This document shows positions 3,935-11,009 of a stretch of 64,000 nucleotides of DNA, piece by piece. This stretch comes from Mesorhizobium sp. WSM4313. Its GTDB lineage: Bacteria; Pseudomonadota; Alphaproteobacteria; Rhizobiales; Rhizobiaceae. The notes beneath the pieces are model-generated. The model ran no database searches and had not been told where the DNA came from. It saw nothing but the letters and a program-made list of their open reading frames with translations. The translations under genes and the position numbers were made by a program. The stretch spans positions 310,001 to 374,000 of the forward strand of contig NZ_NSFT01000003.1 of NCBI RefSeq assembly GCF_002294725.1, given 5' to 3'. Within the stretch, counting starts at the first letter, position 1. Every line of letters begins with the position of its first letter.

Positions 3935-5059
3935 CTATTGCGTGAGCACGTTGCTGATCTCGACCATGTTGGAGCGCACGCGCAGGATGTAGAAGCCCAT
4001 CGTCGTCAGATGCGTCGGCAGGAGCCAACCGTCTTCGCGGCCGTTGGCGATGATGAAGGGCTGGATGCGCAGCGCCGAGACGAATTGCGAATCCATCGTG
4101 TCCCAAAGGCTCTGCAGGTGCTTTTCCTTGATCACGTCGTCGAAGTCGGCCTGGGCGCCCTTCATCAAGCCGTAATATGCATAGAGCTGACCATAGGCGA
4201 ACCAGAAGCGGTCATCGGCGCGGGTATCGAACCAGCCATCATTGTGGTTTTCCGCGCGCTCCTTGAGGATGGCCGAGGTCGATCCGATGTCCGAGGAGAT
4301 GCGGTCGATATATTGCTTCAGATTGTCGGCACGGGCGTCGAACGTCGCCTGGCAGGTGGCCAGCCGGGCGTTGAAGTTTCGCAGCTTGCGCACCGCGTCG
4401 CGATAATAGCTCGGCGTCGGCGTCTTGGGGCCGAACGGGTTCAGGCCGAAATACCAGGTGTATTCATCGAACTGCAGATTGCCGCGCGCATCCTGCAGGT
4501 CGGCGTCGATCTGCGATGTCGTGCGCACGCGGCCGAGATTGTCGGCAAGCTCGGTCGCGGTGCGCCGCACCGCCTGGTTGATGCCGCGCTGGAAGGAGGC
4601 CTTGTTGTCCATCCAGGGCGTGTGGTCCCAATCGATGCCGAACAAGCCGAGCTTGTAGAGGATCATCGAGGAGATCCAGGCATTCTGGTTGACGTTGAAG
4701 TCCGTCAAATCGGCGGCAACCTGGGCGATCGCCGAGTTGCCGCATGTCTTGGCCGTATCAGTGCCGCTGCCGGCTGAAACCTGCTCGCCCGCCGACACGT
4801 TCCGCTTCTCGAACGTGTAGGTGTCGGGATAGTTCGGGTTGAAATTGTTCCACCACTGCGTGGCGTAGAAGAAATTGGCATAGAGGCCGATCAATACCAG
4901 AACGGCAAGGCCGACCACCGCCTTCAGAATCCAGCCGCGCTGGCCGTACCAGCGGCCAACCCACATGAACGGCCACAGGATGAGGCCGATGACGAAGCCG
5001 ATGCCGCGGCCGATCCATTGAAAAATCCGGGTGAAGAAGTTCACGATCGGGTCGAGCAT
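3935..5059 (-). CDS. DUF2333 family membrane-anchored protein
   Basis: A 374-residue protein with two hydrophobic helices at the N-terminus (about 13-34 and 45-66, WILKAVVGLAVLVLIGLYAN) separated by an aromatic and basic loop, then a large polar domain that should lie in the periplasm. The family (DUF2333) is conserved in Proteobacteria without assigned function. It is the last gene of the minus-strand run that begins at 11009; a 217-base gap filled with RIME-like repeats separates it from the 434-aa gene upstream, so co-transcription is likely but not certain. It would be the membrane component of that cluster. Confidence 0.8.
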   Translation of the reverse strand: MLDPIVNFFTRIFQWIGRGIGFVIGLILWPFMWVGRWYGQRGWILKAVVGLAVLVLIGLYANFFYATQWWNNFNPNYPDTYTFEKRNVSAGEQVSAGSGTDTAKTCGNSAIAQVAADLTDFNVNQNAWISSMILYKLGLFGIDWDHTPWMDNKASFQRGINQAVRRTATELADNLGRVRTTSQIDADLQDARGNLQFDEYTWYFGLNPFGPKTPTPSYYRDAVRKLRNFNARLATCQATFDARADNLKQYIDRISSDIGSTSAILKERAENHNDGWFDTRADDRFWFAYGQLYAYYGLMKGAQADFDDVIKEKHLQSLWDTMDSQFVSALRIQPFIIANGREDGWLLPTHLTTMGFYILRVRSNMVEISNVLTQ

Positions 5060-5075
5060 GGCTGTGGCACCCCTC

Positions 5076-5280
5076 AGAGCATTTCACCGTTTCAAGGGAA
5101 ATGGCGATCTGCCCTAACCCTTTGTTTTGGCGCAATTCCGGGCGGAAAACCGCCCACATTTTTCCTGGAATTGCTCTAGATCAGAATAACGTTTCGTTGA
5201 AACGTCATCCTGATCTAACTCTTTGTTGGAGCATGATTTCCCCCGAAAACCGGTTCCCACTTTTCGGAATCATGCTCTAG
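5076..5280. repeat. RIME-like mosaic repeat, three modules
   Basis: Three modules follow each other. Module A (5076-5178) starts AGAGCATTTCACCGTTTC and ends TTCCTGGAATTGCTCTAG, the same layout as the elements at 11319 and 16601. Module C (about 5176-5218) is a hairpin with TAGATCAGAATAACG and its near complement. Module B (5229-5280) is a palindrome with GAGCATGATT and AATCATGCTC arms around ACCGGTTCCCACTTTTCGG; it recurs at 57585 and 58377. The terminal CTAG contains the stop codon of the gene at 5277-6581. Confidence 0.85.
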
Positions 5281-6581
5281 TCAGTCAAACCGTAAAGGCG
5301 CGCGCGGAACGCCGCCTTGTCCTTCAGATATGTGGTTTTCAGAACGTCCACAACATGGCTTCGCCAGGCGTCGCTGAAGCCGTCATAATCCTTGTAGAAG
5401 CCGGGCTTGTTGAAGACGTAGCGCGACACGAAGTCCTGCGGCACGAAATCCGAGATCAGCTGGTTGGTCAGCCAGGCATCGGGATGATCGGGCTTGGCGC
5501 GCACGACGAGGAAACGCTGGCGCGGCGACACATCCTCGATCTTGAGATGGCCGAGCTGGGCGATCTCGCGCTTGGCGGCGTTGAGGAACGGGAAATTGCC
5601 GTCGCTGGCGATCAGGTCGGCGTGGCCAAGGATCCAGGTCTGCAGCCAGACCTTGTCGACATCGGTCAGATTGCGGTTGGGCTCGGCATCGCGGATCAGC
5701 GCCCGCACGATCATTTCGGCGCGGTGTTCGAGATAACCGGAAGTCTCGATCCAGGAGGCGCGCGGCAGGTCGAGGCGGCCGGTGGCGGCCAGGAAGCCGA
5801 ACACCTTGTCGGCGTCATTGATCGACAGATAGCTCACCTGCCAGGGGCGCGAGCGGCGGAACCCGGGAGCGGCCGGATCGCTGATCACCGTCGTCATGTC
5901 GGGGTCGACGAAGACATAGAGCCCGCCGAAATGGCTGGTCCAGTAGGCATTGTGGCGGAAGATCACTTGGTCCGGCACCAGCGCGTTCTCGCGGATGTCG
6001 CCGCAGACCTTGGCAAGGTCGACCATGCGCTCAAGCATGGCGTCGTCGCGCCAGGCGTCAGGCTCCTGCCTCAGCCGGTCGACGAGCTTGCCGAGCTCGG
6101 CCGCCTTGCCGAGCACGTCCTCGGCTGACAACACCTTGAACTCGACCTGGTTGATCGACAGCAGGTCCTCGATATCGTTGACCTTGGGAACCGAGTCCTC
6201 GATCTCGCCGTAGATGACGTCCTTGATGGTCAGCGCGTCGATGGCGCGCTGGTTCTTCGACATGAACTCGAACATCAGCTGCGAGGTGTTGGAGAAGGCG
6301 GTGTGGACCACCGGCAGGTCGATCTGCGACGGCGTCAGGATGATGAAACGGCGGTTGACCTCGTTGGGATCGAGATAGTCGTAGTCGCCGCATTCCTCGG
6401 CGATTTCGGGCGAGAAGCCGGTGCGGTCGATCTGGAAGCTCGCAAGCTTGGTGGGCTCGAGGCCGAAAGCGGCAAGCGCCTTGTTGTAGCGCTGGATGAG
6501 ATGCGGCTCGTCGATGGCGAGCAGCCTGCCGTAGATCAGCTCGTTGTCGCGCAGAAGGTCGGGTTTCTTGGCTGCTTTCAT
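5277..6581 (-). CDS. Conserved protein of unknown function in the AAA+ ATPase cluster (434 aa)
   Basis: A 434-residue soluble protein without signal peptide or membrane helix. It reads as a compact alpha/beta protein with acidic surface and several conserved-looking blocks (HTAFSNTSQLMFEFMSKNQ, VIFRHNAYWTSHFGGLYVFV). The start is placed at ATG 6581 (MKAAKKPDLL) because it has a good ribosome-binding site (GAAGGA); the 54 codons that remain open further upstream only translate a palindromic repeat. The TAG stop at 5277-5279 also lies in a repeat. It sits 225 bases after the AAA+ gene and before the DUF2333 gene. Function unknown; its place in the cluster suggests a partner of the ATPase. Confidence 0.85.
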   Translation of the reverse strand: MKAAKKPDLLRDNELIYGRLLAIDEPHLIQRYNKALAAFGLEPTKLASFQIDRTGFSPEIAEECGDYDYLDPNEVNRRFIILTPSQIDLPVVHTAFSNTSQLMFEFMSKNQRAIDALTIKDVIYGEIEDSVPKVNDIEDLLSINQVEFKVLSAEDVLGKAAELGKLVDRLRQEPDAWRDDAMLERMVDLAKVCGDIRENALVPDQVIFRHNAYWTSHFGGLYVFVDPDMTTVISDPAAPGFRRSRPWQVSYLSINDADKVFGFLAATGRLDLPRASWIETSGYLEHRAEMIVRALIRDAEPNRNLTDVDKVWLQTWILGHADLIASDGNFPFLNAAKREIAQLGHLKIEDVSPRQRFLVVRAKPDHPDAWLTNQLISDFVPQDFVSRYVFNKPGFYKDYDGFSDAWRSHVVDVLKTTYLKDKAAFRARLYGLTD

Positions 6582-6584
6582 CTG

Positions 6585-6791
6585 TCCTTCTCCCCGTTCA
6601 CGGGGAGAAGGTGCCCGATGGGCGGATGAGGGGCAGCGCACTCTTCCCTTCTCCCCTTGTGGGAGAAGGTGGATCGGCGCGATAGCGCCGAGACGGATGA
6701 GGGGTGTTCCAGCGGAGTGAGACGCTGGCGTTCCCTGGAGCACCCCTCATCCGTCGCCTTCGGCGACACCTTCTCCCACAAGGGGAGAAGG
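6585..6791. repeat. CTTCTCCCC-type palindromic repeats (two in tandem)
   Basis: A short unit at 6585-6612 (CCTTCTCCCC/GGGGAGAAGG) and a long palindrome at 6647-6791 with arms CTTCTCCCCTTGTGGGAGAA and its complement, and inner arms CGGATGAGGGGTG/CACCCCTCATCCG. The same long element recurs at 26024-26251 and 54137-54281. The short unit overlaps the ribosome-binding site of the gene starting at 6581. Confidence 0.9.
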
Positions 6792-6806
6792 CGAGGTCGG
6801 CGCAGC

Positions 6807-8717
6807 TCACGCATTCCACAGCCCCTTCTTCTTCAACTCCTCCATCTCGCGTGCTGCGCGCTCGCGCAGCCTGGCGTCGCGCAGGAGCTTCTCCACGGCG
6901 GCGTCGTCGGATTTATCGGAATAGCGGAACTCGGAATCGGCGTAGCGGTTGATCTCCTGCATGACCATGTCCATCGAGAACGGTCCGCGCAGTTCCTCGA
7001 TCATCGCCTTCTTGTCGTCGTAGCTCTTGTGCATGAAGGCTTCCGGCTTCTCGAACCAGTCGTCCGGCAGCTCGATGTCCATGGCGCGCATTTTTATCGC
7101 GTCGGTGACGTTCTTGATGGCGCGGCCGGTGAAGCGCGGCTCGGCGTCCTTGATCATGTGCAGATAGGTGCCGACATCGGCCATGGTCTTCGGCGCGCCG
7201 TTTTCCTTCATGTAGCGCTCATAGACCTTCATCAGCCCGTCTTCCTGCGGCTTTTCGTGCTCTTCATAAGCTTCGGCCACGGCGCGCCGGATTTCCTGCG
7301 CGGCATAGAGCTCGTGCTTGCCAAGCGGGATCTCGTGGTTCTTGCCGGCAAGCAGCACGAAGATGTCGATATAGTCGTCGCGCGTCTGCGGGCCGTCGAC
7401 CAGCCAGCGCGCGCCGGCGCGCTGGCGCAGCGCGTCGTCGACATTTTCCGGATAGTTGGAGAACATGCCGAAGGAGCAATTGCCGCGCACCACCGTCGAG
7501 GCGCCGGCGAAGGCGTCCATCAGGACGCCGGTGATCTCCTGCTGACCGGCGGAAGCACGGTCGTCGGAACGGCGCGCCGCCACCTGGTCGATGTCGTCGA
7601 TGGTGCCGAAGCCGATGACGCGCGGATTGAGCACGTTGTTGATGAACTGTCGGCAGTTCTGGCCCGACTTGCCCTGGTAGGACGAGATCTGGTCGACGCC
7701 GAAATTCTCATAGGCGAAGGGATAGCCGGCGACCTGGCAGTAGCCGTTGACGAGGCCGGCGATCATCTGGATCAGCGTCGTCTTGCCGGTGCCCGGCGCC
7801 CCGTCGCCGATGAAGGTGAACAGGAACCCGCCGAGCTCGACGAAGGGGTTCAGCTCGCGCTCGAAGTCGTAGGCCATGAGCATCTTGGCCAGCCTGACCG
7901 ACTGGAATTTGGCGATGTGGTTGCCGATGACCTCTTCCGGTTTCTTGAAGGTCATCACCAGCGGCTTGGTGCGCTTGCCGGGCGCGACGTCGAAACCATC
8001 GAGGGTGAAATCGTCGACGTCGATACGGATATGCGCATTTTCGAACGGGCCAATGCCGTCGAAGCGACCTTTGCGCGCAAGCAACCCGTCGATGGCGACG
8101 CGGGCGAAGGCGCGAGCGCGCGTCGTCAGGTCGGCGTCGTCCTTCGAGCCGGCTATTGCCTTGTCGAGACCGGCGATGATCGACTTGACCGCGTCCTGCG
8201 GTGTGTCGAACAGGAAGTCGGGCTCGGGGGTGTCGTTCGGCGCCTCGCCATCGCTGTCGATCAGCTGGAACAGATACGAAGCGAAACTGAAGGCGGAAAC
8301 GTAAGCCGAGGCCGACAGAAGCTTCTTGAAGGTGGCTGCCTCATCGCCTTCCAGCGGCGCACGCGCATTCCTCGCCTGCAGGCTTTCGAGGTCGGAGCCT
8401 TCGGCGAAGACGTCGGATATGGCGAGCGCGATCGCCAGGCCGCGGCGGGCGCGGTAGAGCAGCGTGTGCTGCGGGATGCTCATCAACTGGTCGTCGGGAT
8501 GAATGGCCGCTACTGTTTTCGTGAGCTCGACCTCGCGCGTGCGGCGCACCGAGCCGACCGACACGGTCGAGACGAAGCGGCGGTTGGTGCCGGCAAGCGC
8601 CGTGCCGGATTCGCGCGAAGGGTCCTCCAGCACGACGATGCGGGTGATGAAGCTCTGCGCGGTCGCGCGGTGCTTTTCGATTGCGGCTTCCGAGATCGTG
8701 GTCAGGCCGGTGTCCAT
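6807..8717 (-). CDS. AAA+ family ATPase with a long unique N-terminal region
   Basis: A 636-residue protein. About 300 residues of unrecognised sequence precede one AAA+ core: Walker A GAPGTGKTT at 306-314, Walker B VIGFGTIDDID at 367-377, a sensor 1 Asn in FGMFSNYP near 421 and a likely Arg finger in DDALRQRAGAR at 428-437. A helical region after the core includes charged repeats and ends ERAAREMEELKKKG. The domain set suggests an ATP-driven remodelling machine acting on a partner. The ATG at 8717 has a GGAG ribosome-binding site. It lies 23 bases after the 381-aa gene and is probably translated from the same mRNA. The specific substrate is unknown. Confidence 0.9.
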   Translation of the reverse strand: MDTGLTTISEAAIEKHRATAQSFITRIVVLEDPSRESGTALAGTNRRFVSTVSVGSVRRTREVELTKTVAAIHPDDQLMSIPQHTLLYRARRGLAIALAISDVFAEGSDLESLQARNARAPLEGDEAATFKKLLSASAYVSAFSFASYLFQLIDSDGEAPNDTPEPDFLFDTPQDAVKSIIAGLDKAIAGSKDDADLTTRARAFARVAIDGLLARKGRFDGIGPFENAHIRIDVDDFTLDGFDVAPGKRTKPLVMTFKKPEEVIGNHIAKFQSVRLAKMLMAYDFERELNPFVELGGFLFTFIGDGAPGTGKTTLIQMIAGLVNGYCQVAGYPFAYENFGVDQISSYQGKSGQNCRQFINNVLNPRVIGFGTIDDIDQVAARRSDDRASAGQQEITGVLMDAFAGASTVVRGNCSFGMFSNYPENVDDALRQRAGARWLVDGPQTRDDYIDIFVLLAGKNHEIPLGKHELYAAQEIRRAVAEAYEEHEKPQEDGLMKVYERYMKENGAPKTMADVGTYLHMIKDAEPRFTGRAIKNVTDAIKMRAMDIELPDDWFEKPEAFMHKSYDDKKAMIEELRGPFSMDMVMQEINRYADSEFRYSDKSDDAAVEKLLRDARLRERAAREMEELKKKGLWNA

Positions 8718-8740
8718 GAAGGATGCTCCGCGATTGACGG

Positions 8741-9886
8741 TCAGACGTCGCTGATCACCTGTCCGTTGGACAGGATGTGGACCTTGTAACCGGAAAAGAT
8801 CTTCTGCGCCTCGCCGGCGGCGTAGAGCGCCTGATAGGCCTCGTGCGGGATCAGCGCGTGGTTCTCGTAGCTCGACACGCCCTGGCGCGCCGCTTCGAGA
8901 TCGTCGGTGTTGATGAAGAATTCCTGCGTTGTCTTCTCGCTGGAGAACAGTCCCCTGCGGCCGGGCTTCTCGCTCTTGGAGAAGACTTCCTGGATGGTCC
9001 AGGTGAGCAGCCAGGCGTTCTGCGGCTTGCGCACCTTGGCCAGCACCTCGGCCACCGTCGAATTGTTCTGGGTGATGCCGGCCGAGTAGAAGGGTCCCAG
9101 CACCACGCGCCTCAGCTGCTTGGGATGCAGCGGCTCGAAATCCTTGTCGAGATTGACGGCGATCGTCGCCGGAGACAGCGTATAGGCCGAGTTCTTCTCG
9201 GTGAAATCGTCGAAGCGGTGCGCAAGCTCCGGGTTGAGCAAGCCGTCGACGGGAAGCGGGATATCGACCCGCTCGTTGAGCTTGCCGTTCACGTCGACCA
9301 GCTGGCGCACCATGCTTTCGGAGGAGTCCTCCACCGTCACCATGTAGACCAGCGGCAGGTTGGCGCTGCCGTCGAACGCGGCCCAGTGGACGAGATAATA
9401 TGGCCGCATTGTCTTCGGGTTGACCGAGACCTTTGCCGTCTGCGCCAGGGTGAAGGGGCCGAAGGTCGCCTCGCTCTTGACGTCCTCAAGATAGAGCCGC
9501 TCTGCCATCGACTTCTGCAGCGCCTCTGGGAATTCCTTGTGGCGCAGGATGAAGTCGGCCATCTCCTCGCGCAGCTCGCCGGCCTGCGGGATGTTGGCCA
9601 GCCGCGCATCGGCCTGCTGGCGGTCGTTTTCCAGCTCGAGCAGGTTCTGGAAGACGGGGTAGCCGCTTTCGGCGCGCGAGATGCGGAAGGTGTCCATGAA
9701 ACCGAGCCGGTTGCGCCAGCAGGCAAAGGACTTGTCCAGCCGCGCGATATACTCCGCGACGATCCTGGCGACGATGCCGTGCCGGTAGAGCGGCGAGCGG
9801 TCGTCGCGCATGAACACTTCCAGCCCGCTCAGCGCCGCCGTGATGGCGGAGAAATAGCGTACCGCGGCGTCGTTCTCAGGTGTCAT
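8741..9886 (-). CDS. Conserved protein of unknown function in the AAA+ ATPase cluster (381 aa)
   Basis: A 381-residue soluble protein with no signal peptide or transmembrane helix. The first 130 residues look helical (AVRYFSAITAALSGLEVFM, helices rich in Glu, Arg and Leu); the middle is predicted mixed alpha/beta (YYLVHWAAFDGSANLPLVYM). The gene lies 34 bases after the coiled-coil gene and 23 bases before the AAA+ ATPase, which is strong evidence for a shared operon and function. No family recognised. The ATG start has only a weak ribosome-binding site. Confidence 0.85.
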   Translation of the reverse strand: MTPENDAAVRYFSAITAALSGLEVFMRDDRSPLYRHGIVARIVAEYIARLDKSFACWRNRLGFMDTFRISRAESGYPVFQNLLELENDRQQADARLANIPQAGELREEMADFILRHKEFPEALQKSMAERLYLEDVKSEATFGPFTLAQTAKVSVNPKTMRPYYLVHWAAFDGSANLPLVYMVTVEDSSESMVRQLVDVNGKLNERVDIPLPVDGLLNPELAHRFDDFTEKNSAYTLSPATIAVNLDKDFEPLHPKQLRRVVLGPFYSAGITQNNSTVAEVLAKVRKPQNAWLLTWTIQEVFSKSEKPGRRGLFSSEKTTQEFFINTDDLEAARQGVSSYENHALIPHEAYQALYAAGEAQKIFSGYKVHILSNGQVISDV

Positions 9887-9920
9887 GTGGCTGCCGTGGA
9901 AATGAAATCAGCGGCGCCGC

Positions 9921-11009
9921 CTATTGCTGCACATAGTTGGCGGCGTTGTGCTTCTTCATCACATCGTCGAAGCGGCGGGCGAAAGCATCGTCGGCAAGCT
10001 TCTTGCGGCGCTGGATGTCGGCTGAAGCCACCATGTTCTTCTCATGCATCTCGAGCAGGTCGCCGATATGCTTCTGCGAGGCGGCGCCGATGCCGGCCAT
10101 CGTCTCCTCGGCCGTGTTGTCGACCTGGCTGCCCAGCGTGTTGATCTTGTGGGCGACGTCCTGCTGGGCGGCGGTCTTGAGCGAATCTTCCAGCGCCTTG
10201 TAGAGGACGATGCGCTGCTCGGTGTCGATGGTCAGCTTGTTGATCAGGGTCGACTGCGCGGCAATCTGGTTGTTGAGTGAATCGACGAAGGTCTGGAACA
10301 TCGAGGTGTAGCGCTCCAGCGTCTGGCTTTCGGCCAGCAGCTCCTGCTCCTTGGCCTGCTTTTCATTGTATTCGGTCGCCATTTTGGAGCGCTCGCCCTC
10401 AAGCTCGGTGCGCTCCTTCTGGGTCGTGGAGGCGGCGATCTTGTTTTCGATGTCGAGCAGCATCGGGTTCAATTCCTCGATGCGCTTCTGCACCGCTTCA
10501 AGATTGGTCATCGTCACCTTGCGGCGCTCGATAACCTGCGAAAGGCTGGCCTCGGAGGTCTTGTAGCGCTGGTCGAGGACCTGCTTCTGCGCCTTCAAGA
10601 TGCCGACGATGGTGTCCGACTTTGCCAGCAGCTCCTGCAGATTGCCGGCCAGCGACATATTGCGGACGCGGTCGGTGCGCATGCGCTGCTTGCGCTGCGC
10701 CGAAAAGACACCGACGAAGTTTTCCCAGCCGGTGTAGTTCTTCATGCTTTCGAACTCGGCGCCGAAGACATTGGTTGCGTCCTCGAGCCCGATGATCAGG
10801 TCGGCAATATTGCCTTCCATGACTTTCTGCTGCTTGAGCACGTCCTCGATGCGGGCGTTCTCGATGTCGAAATTGGCGTCGCCGATCTTCTTGTCGGCCT
10901 GAGCAAGCGTGTCGAGCACGGTGCCGGACTGCTCGATCTTGCTGCGCATGTCCTGCACGACCTGCTTGGTCTTGGCAATTTCGGCATCGAAATTCTGCAA
11001 TGTCGCCAT
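9921..11009 (-). CDS. Coiled-coil protein, first gene of the AAA+ ATPase cluster
   Basis: A 362-residue, strongly helical, charged protein with heptad-like coiled coils over most of its length (for example AEIAKTKQVVQDMRSKIEQS, and a long Glu/Lys/Gln-rich stretch around 170-270). There is no signal peptide or membrane segment. The start at 11009 (MATLQNF) is chosen for its GGGAGG ribosome-binding site; the open frame continues 28 codons upstream without one. It leads the five-gene minus-strand run. Shape and context resemble scaffold or filament-like partners of AAA+ machines, and a loose likeness to TelA-type tellurite proteins was considered but is not supported by motifs. Confidence 0.85.
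   Translation of the reverse strand: MATLQNFDAEIAKTKQVVQDMRSKIEQSGTVLDTLAQADKKIGDANFDIENARIEDVLKQQKVMEGNIADLIIGLEDATNVFGAEFESMKNYTGWENFVGVFSAQRKQRMRTDRVRNMSLAGNLQELLAKSDTIVGILKAQKQVLDQRYKTSEASLSQVIERRKVTMTNLEAVQKRIEELNPMLLDIENKIAASTTQKERTELEGERSKMATEYNEKQAKEQELLAESQTLERYTSMFQTFVDSLNNQIAAQSTLINKLTIDTEQRIVLYKALEDSLKTAAQQDVAHKINTLGSQVDNTAEETMAGIGAASQKHIGDLLEMHEKNMVASADIQRRKKLADDAFARRFDDVMKKHNAANYVQQ

Follow-up and report, generated by a model that had tools for sequence, protein, structure and literature searches.

The closest described counterparts of the locus considered here are the ESCRT-III/Vps4 and PspA-AAA systems, in which, going by the main text of an mSystems survey of phage shock protein (PSP) partners (PMC11237479), an AAA ATPase of the classic type is likewise encoded beside a helical protein, with membrane proteins nearby. 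The same main text contains the terms 'DUF2333' and 'DUF6638' 0 times. The locus lies in a 64,000-nucleotide stretch of Mesorhizobium sp. WSM4313 (assembly GCF_002294725.1, contig NZ_NSFT01000003.1, positions 310,001 to 374,000), hereafter the window, and encodes a coiled-coil protein (CC), a 381-residue protein (U381), an AAA ATPase and a DUF6638 protein, accompanied by a DUF2333 membrane protein. The first four form an ATPase machine that is conserved in Mesorhizobium, Sinorhizobium, Rhodobacteraceae-like and Halomonas-like genomes, and also in Vibrio, and that carries no name in the literature found.

All five genes are real and correctly placed, with open reading frames on the minus strand of the window. 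In gene order, the core consists of CC (9921-11009; 362 residues from the ATG at 11009), U381 (8741-9886), the ATPase (6807-8717; 636 residues) and the DUF6638 protein (PF20343; 5277-6581; 434 residues). They are followed by the DUF2333 protein (PF10095; 3935-5059; 374 residues), a lineage-specific membrane partner. The intervening gaps measure 34, 23, 225 and 217 bases. A preliminary description of the window had reported five same-strand genes at these coordinates, the two short gaps, an ATPase with a distinct N-terminus of about 300 residues and a DUF2333 membrane protein, and all of these points hold. The AAA match of the ATPase begins at residue 306 and the part preceding it has no Pfam match at E <= 1, while the DUF2333 protein matches its family well above the cut-off (82.6 bits vs 22; E 3.2e-23) and has two N-terminal hydrophobic segments. 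The 434-residue protein, previously listed as having no recognisable family, belongs to DUF6638 (236.8 bits over residues 17-431, E 5.8e-70). The window copies of the four core proteins are free of hydrophobic segments.

Evidence that these genes form a unit comes from their joint distribution. In a draw of 299 proteobacterial genomes, searched separately for the ATPase (cut-off E <= 1e-20), DUF6638, U381 and CC, the first three were each found in 20 genomes, and the 20 are identical for all three. The CC profile matched 24 genomes, namely the same 20 and four more. Nine of the 20 belong to the window's genus, nine to one other family of its class and one to another family of its order; the last lies outside the class, and its U381 shares 96% identity with a protein of Halomonas. 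Within the window's own family, the ATPase is present in 69 of 116 genomes. A draw across the class, spanning 203 genera, yielded DUF6638 in only 4 of 240 genomes; the system is thus frequent in a small number of groups but has a patchy distribution as a whole.

Gene order is preserved as well. Among 92 loci (80 mostly from Mesorhizobium and its relatives, and 12 distant ones from other groups), 90 show CC, U381, ATPase and DUF6638 in this order on one strand, and the two exceptions are cut by contig ends (L039 on the DUF6638 and DUF2333 side, L083 on the CC and U381 side). Median gaps between CC and U381 and between U381 and the ATPase are 35 and 24 bases over the 79 scored Mesorhizobium-type loci, and ATPase identity is about 93-98% across most Mesorhizobium loci. 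Thymidine kinase is present in at least 70 of the 80 Mesorhizobium-type stretches and formate-tetrahydrofolate (THF) ligase in at least 74, so that the chromosomal place is largely fixed. The core also occurs on other replicons. For example, four records of replicons of roughly 0.9 Mb, which bear the annotation of plasmids from Vibrio vulnificus and V. parahaemolyticus, contain an ATPase relative; the four core genes are adjacent and in the same order in the record examined in detail, and the annotation of a second record is laid out alike. The four core genes also lie side by side on a plasmid of R. leguminosarum. Conservation of the gene set thus spans classes and goes beyond chance.

The membrane protein that accompanies the core depends on the lineage. 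The gene after DUF6638 is DUF2333 in 79 of 80 Mesorhizobium-type loci, the remaining one being the truncated L039, and in 0 of the 12 distant loci. All 12 distant loci have DUF1523 in its stead, which Pfam confirms in the six that were scanned in the right frame, and 10 of them also encode a small protein of about 88 residues. Hydrophobic segments are predicted for both partners, two in DUF2333 and two and one, respectively, in the two DUF1523 proteins scored. Because DUF2333 and DUF1523 alternate, because neither is encoded near the Vibrio and R. leguminosarum copies, and because DUF2333 also exists without the core (it is present in 26 of 120 genomes of one draw, including genomes that lack the ATPase), the unit is a four-protein core with an exchangeable membrane partner. 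The earlier expectation that five families stay together is thus borne out for CC, U381, the ATPase and DUF6638 and fails for DUF2333. The proposal of a conserved, apparently undescribed unit is supported; within the AAA superfamily, its ATPase could be assigned to no named family.

Other settings of DUF2333 were also considered. The ten neighbours of DUF2333 from other genomes that were scanned with Pfam had nothing in common; DUF2333 itself was recovered in 10 of the 18 stretches used for this comparison, so neighbours may be missed. In two of these 18 stretches (L200:6474-8905 and L201:6303-9510), PspA is encoded on the strand of DUF2333, at a distance of 0.7 to 1.5 kb. One paper (PMC5256989) mentions DUF2333, as a gene next to an orphan locus for type VI secretion. 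The open-licence literature found gives no function for DUF1523 or DUF2333 and, among 5.39 million papers, no mention of DUF6638 or PF20343.

By its Pfam profile, the ATPase is assigned to the classic type of the AAA superfamily (PF00004; 44.5 bits vs a cut-off of 21.2). Scans with NCBIfam and PADLOC gave weak hits only, and among the PHROGs families the AAA domain best matches one without a known function (E 1.4e-7). The motifs, all on the minus strand, are close to invariant in 93 aligned sequences. Walker A (7779..7808; residues 304-313, GDGAPGTGKT in the window) reads GDGxPGTGKT in 93/93, pore loop 1 (7665..7682; residues 346-351, SYQGKS) reads S/E-YQGKS in 93/93, the Arg-finger region (7407..7439; residues 427-437, DDALRQRAGAR) retains DDALRQR in 93/93, and the sensor-1 motif MFSN is kept in 92/93. 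In a profile alignment, pore loop 1 coincides with its aromatic counterpart in i-AAA and Rpt ATPases. Given this match and established knowledge of AAA proteins, a substrate-threading motor would be the natural reading.

Walker B (7587..7604; residues 372-377, TIDDID) departs from the usual form, with Asp replacing Glu. The pattern T[I/V]DD is fixed, with Asp-Asp in 93/93 sequences, Vibrio included, and Asp-Glu in 0/93. The canonical Asp-Glu pair is usual for the Pfam AAA family, although not defining, and replacement of the Glu in AAA proteins tends to slow hydrolysis. From the fixed Asp-Asp pair, slow or regulated, switch-like turnover of ATP is predicted, and for the same reason canonical hydrolysis is not claimed for this ATPase.

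CC is predicted to be all-helical. Its AlphaFold2 model contains helices only, at a mean predicted local distance difference test (pLDDT) score of 64.9, and CC has no Pfam family above the cut-off. Profiles of CC, U381, DUF6638 and DUF2333 gave nothing believable against solved structures. The share of invariant positions in CC is highest in a tail segment (10056..10184, minus strand; residues 276-318): 15 of 43, vs 39 of 319 elsewhere, among 96 full-length sequences that include Vibrio. The alignment also holds four motor-less copies (100 sequences in total), with identities measured against the window CC.

These four copies come from genomes of the window's family (G043, G107, G253 and G265) in which a CC relative is present and the ATPase, U381 and DUF6638 have no match. 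In all four, CC sits between thymidine kinase on its upstream side and DUF2333 on its downstream side. Formate-THF ligase lies downstream in three; the fourth stretch breaks off within a 45-residue match to the ligase. The motor-less loci are therefore the window's chromosomal place minus the ATPase, U381 and DUF6638. In all four, the profile match to CC stops at residue 274 or 275 and resumes at 313-326, and identity to the window CC is 2-14% in residues 276-318 vs 15-51% for the segments that span 49-275. Conversely, the CC match extends to position 312 or beyond in all 69 ATPase-bearing genomes of the family draw. Three genomes of this draw have CC without the ATPase, of which G043 and G265 lack the tail and G643 has it; G643, with its full-length CC, was not counted as motor-less, as its contig ends 510 bases past CC and the genome is 68% complete. 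Since the CC of motor-less genomes has lost residues 276-318, the motor is suggested to grip this tail, which is the contact proposed for the segment.

The reading that we tentatively favour is that the core works as a disassembly or remodelling machine for CC. The ATPase is predicted to assemble into a ring motor, which would take hold of the conserved CC tail and thread or pull it at the expense of ATP, so that a CC assembly near the inner membrane would be taken apart or reshaped. U381 and DUF6638 may act as adaptors. As DUF2333 stays beside CC even where the motor is gone, it is likely the membrane receptor of CC in Phyllobacteriaceae.

Several observations weigh against this reading. The four tail-less CCs form one clade (support 0.982), and the correlation between tail and motor therefore rests on one event. 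They have also diverged elsewhere, with 6-29% identity in residues 1-48 and 0-17% in 351-362, ends that are poorly kept in distant full-length copies too, and the motor-less CC of L224 additionally lacks about 172-230; loss of the tail is possibly the decay of an idle gene. The borders 276-318 were chosen after the break in the profile match had been seen, and the mean identity of distant sequences is higher for residues 241-275 (0.61) than for the tail (0.54). Polymer formation by CC is only an idea, because its structural model is poor. ATP hydrolysis is likewise only putative for an ATPase whose Walker B motif is without the usual Glu, and none of the known adaptor or substrate domains turned up. 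The Vibrio and R. leguminosarum plasmid stretches, moreover, have neither of the two membrane families nearby, and the open-licence literature yielded no description of this gene set and no experiment on any of its members.

A more specific version of this mechanism would make the unit an ESCRT-III/Vps4-like membrane-remodelling machine. CC would then be a far-diverged PspA-like protein that polymerises on DUF2333 or DUF1523 receptors, and a slow Asp-Asp AAA ring with two dedicated adaptors would strip the polymer from the membrane by way of the CC tail. At the profile level, residues 93-180 of CC (10470-10733, minus strand) weakly resemble the N-terminal 71 residues of PspA. The hhalign probability was 23.6% for 25 CC sequences and 46.1% for 96, the two runs agreeing in register, and the alignment begins at a shared G-[IV]-F-S motif. 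Controls scored lower, at up to 2.4% for 20 block-shuffled profiles, up to 0.9% for reversed ones and 8.0% for TelA against PspA; the profiles comprised 21 PspA and 16 TelA sequences. Helical families resemble each other, so the similarity is suggestive rather than proof; it leaves an ESCRT-III-like reading open. Pfam finds no PspA or Snf7 match in CC at E <= 1, nor an MIT match at E <= 1 in the N-terminus of the ATPase, and for the latter reason the system is not filed as Vps4. We regard the full ESCRT-III/Vps4-like version as doubtful.

Other explanations place the function of the unit elsewhere. U381 might be a T-fold enzyme or a binder of purine- or pterin-like ligands that the ATPase activates or reloads, much as rubisco activase does, which would make the unit a metabolic activase or assembly factor. 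The predicted structure of U381 (mean pLDDT 88.5) combines N-terminal helices with a mixed alpha/beta domain, and residues 156-343 (8858..9421, minus strand) are weakly T-fold-like, a trend seen with VIA-align. Foldseek returned nothing at E <= 0.001 for U381 against the PDB and viral libraries, and the protein has no Pfam match above the cut-off; the activase explanation is unlikely. A TelA/Ter-type module for envelope or metal stress, with CC as a remote TelA-like protein and the ATPase as its stress-responsive partner, draws on genome content: among the matches listed for a 120-genome draw, TelA occurs elsewhere in eight of nine ATPase-cluster genomes (G051, G055, G071, G067, G083, G099, G115 and G050) and in 13 of 111 without the cluster. 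These counts are uncorrected for kinship, however, which may explain the lead, and TelA has no match in the genome to which the window belongs. Although CC resembles TelA in being a long soluble protein, it has no match to the TelA profile (PF05816) at E <= 1 and a profile-profile probability of 1.1-1.4% in hhalign, on which grounds CC was rejected as a TelA relative. With no TerB/TerC/TerD-type family among the neighbours scanned, a stress module of this type seems rather unlikely.

CC could also be a cytoskeletal coiled coil whose turnover is controlled by the ATPase, as part of a scaffold for cell shape, division or polar growth. The long helices predicted for CC, the hydrophobic segments and long soluble parts of the membrane partners, and the conserved place in Phyllobacteriaceae are all compatible with such a role. 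However, no division or cell-wall gene is tied to the core in the loci examined, and the ATPase is absent from 47 of the 116 same-family genomes and is therefore dispensable there, which leaves a scaffold improbable. An anti-phage or other conflict system, finally, had been raised in the preliminary description as a defence role and finds no direct support. The combination of an AAA ATPase with uncharacterised partners, the patchiness outside two families (the DUF6638 count in the class draw), the plasmid copies in R. leguminosarum and Vibrio and weak PADLOC hits to the AAA domain (IetA, E 4e-4; TRIP13, E 5e-4) would fit it. The other four proteins, however, have no PADLOC family at E <= 1, and the ATPase, the one protein searched against phages, has no phage match. 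The locus is syntenic in Phyllobacteriaceae, in the largely fixed place described above, and the high ATPase identity among Mesorhizobium loci also argues against conflict, which we consider very unlikely.

Beyond these genes, the 225-base gap between the ATPase and DUF6638 in the window holds palindromic repeats (6582..6806), which are insertion-like and not part of the machine. Their arms, GGGGAGAAGG and CCTTCTCCCC, include those at 6586, 6602, 6647 and 6782, and more such arms occur elsewhere in the window (26025, 26241, 54138 and 54272). Across the 79 scored Mesorhizobium-type loci, this gap ranges from -13 to 1914 bases. Because it is at most 40 bases in 18 of 79 Phyllobacteriaceae-type loci, the window repeats look like late local insertions into a tighter unit. 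Other material is found in the same gap. In an S. meliloti locus (L220, CP090106.1, 11100-12845), the ATPase and DUF6638 are separated by an endonuclease-domain gene and an IS4-type element; the record is labelled pSymB, while its size of 3.7 Mb suggests a chromosome. For S. meliloti, one paper (PMC3687685) gives SMc02733 as an intragenic fragment bound by ChvI, with no product named; no link between that gene number and the present genes was established, and it is not drawn upon. In L109 (10305-11129), the gap contains a gene for a DUF3825 protein (PF12873, E 1.8e-8). Between CC and U381, two distant loci (L103:6039-6344 and L109:6682-6981) encode a small protein with one or two hydrophobic segments. 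Further away in the window, the plus strand encodes a 434-residue protein with three hydrophobic segments (570-1874), which has no believable hit in Pfam, NCBIfam, PHROGs or PADLOC; of 91 related stretches, 8 gave a tblastn match to it.

In summary, the four genes, whose membrane partner is swapped between lineages, make up an AAA machine that is real and conserved and has apparently not been described before; the mechanism proposed for it is plausible. If the mechanism is correct, bacteria would own a further machine for coiled-coil disassembly at the membrane, and DUF2333 and DUF1523 would gain their first partner. The natural joint loss of the motor and a CC segment provides a precise and cheap test of which component pulls which.

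Compared with known systems, the unit combines familiar and distinctive parts. By sequence, the best solved relatives of the ATPase are the i-AAA protease, Rpt/PAN and AFG2, at weak E-values (2.7e-6 at best with a single sequence, 3.9e-5 with a profile). Walker A, the aromatic pore loop, the sensor-1 Asn and the first part of the Arg-finger region can be aligned with those of these proteins, whereas the Asp-Asp Walker B, the ATPase's own 300-residue N-terminus and the absence of a protease family match set it apart. TelA/KlaA proteins are soluble and similar in length to CC, but they have no profile relation to it, and their genes sit elsewhere in genomes that have both. The membrane partners are members of the DUF2333 and DUF1523 Pfam families, the first of which is also found apart from the core. 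The resemblance of CC and its ATPase to ESCRT-III/Vps4 holds in outline: as in the ESCRT-III and PspA-AAA systems presented in the main text of PMC11237479, a C-terminal stretch of the helical protein appears tied to the presence of the ATPase. The difference lies in two extra core proteins, U381 and DUF6638, which that text does not name and which here accompany the ATPase wherever it was found in the phylum draw.

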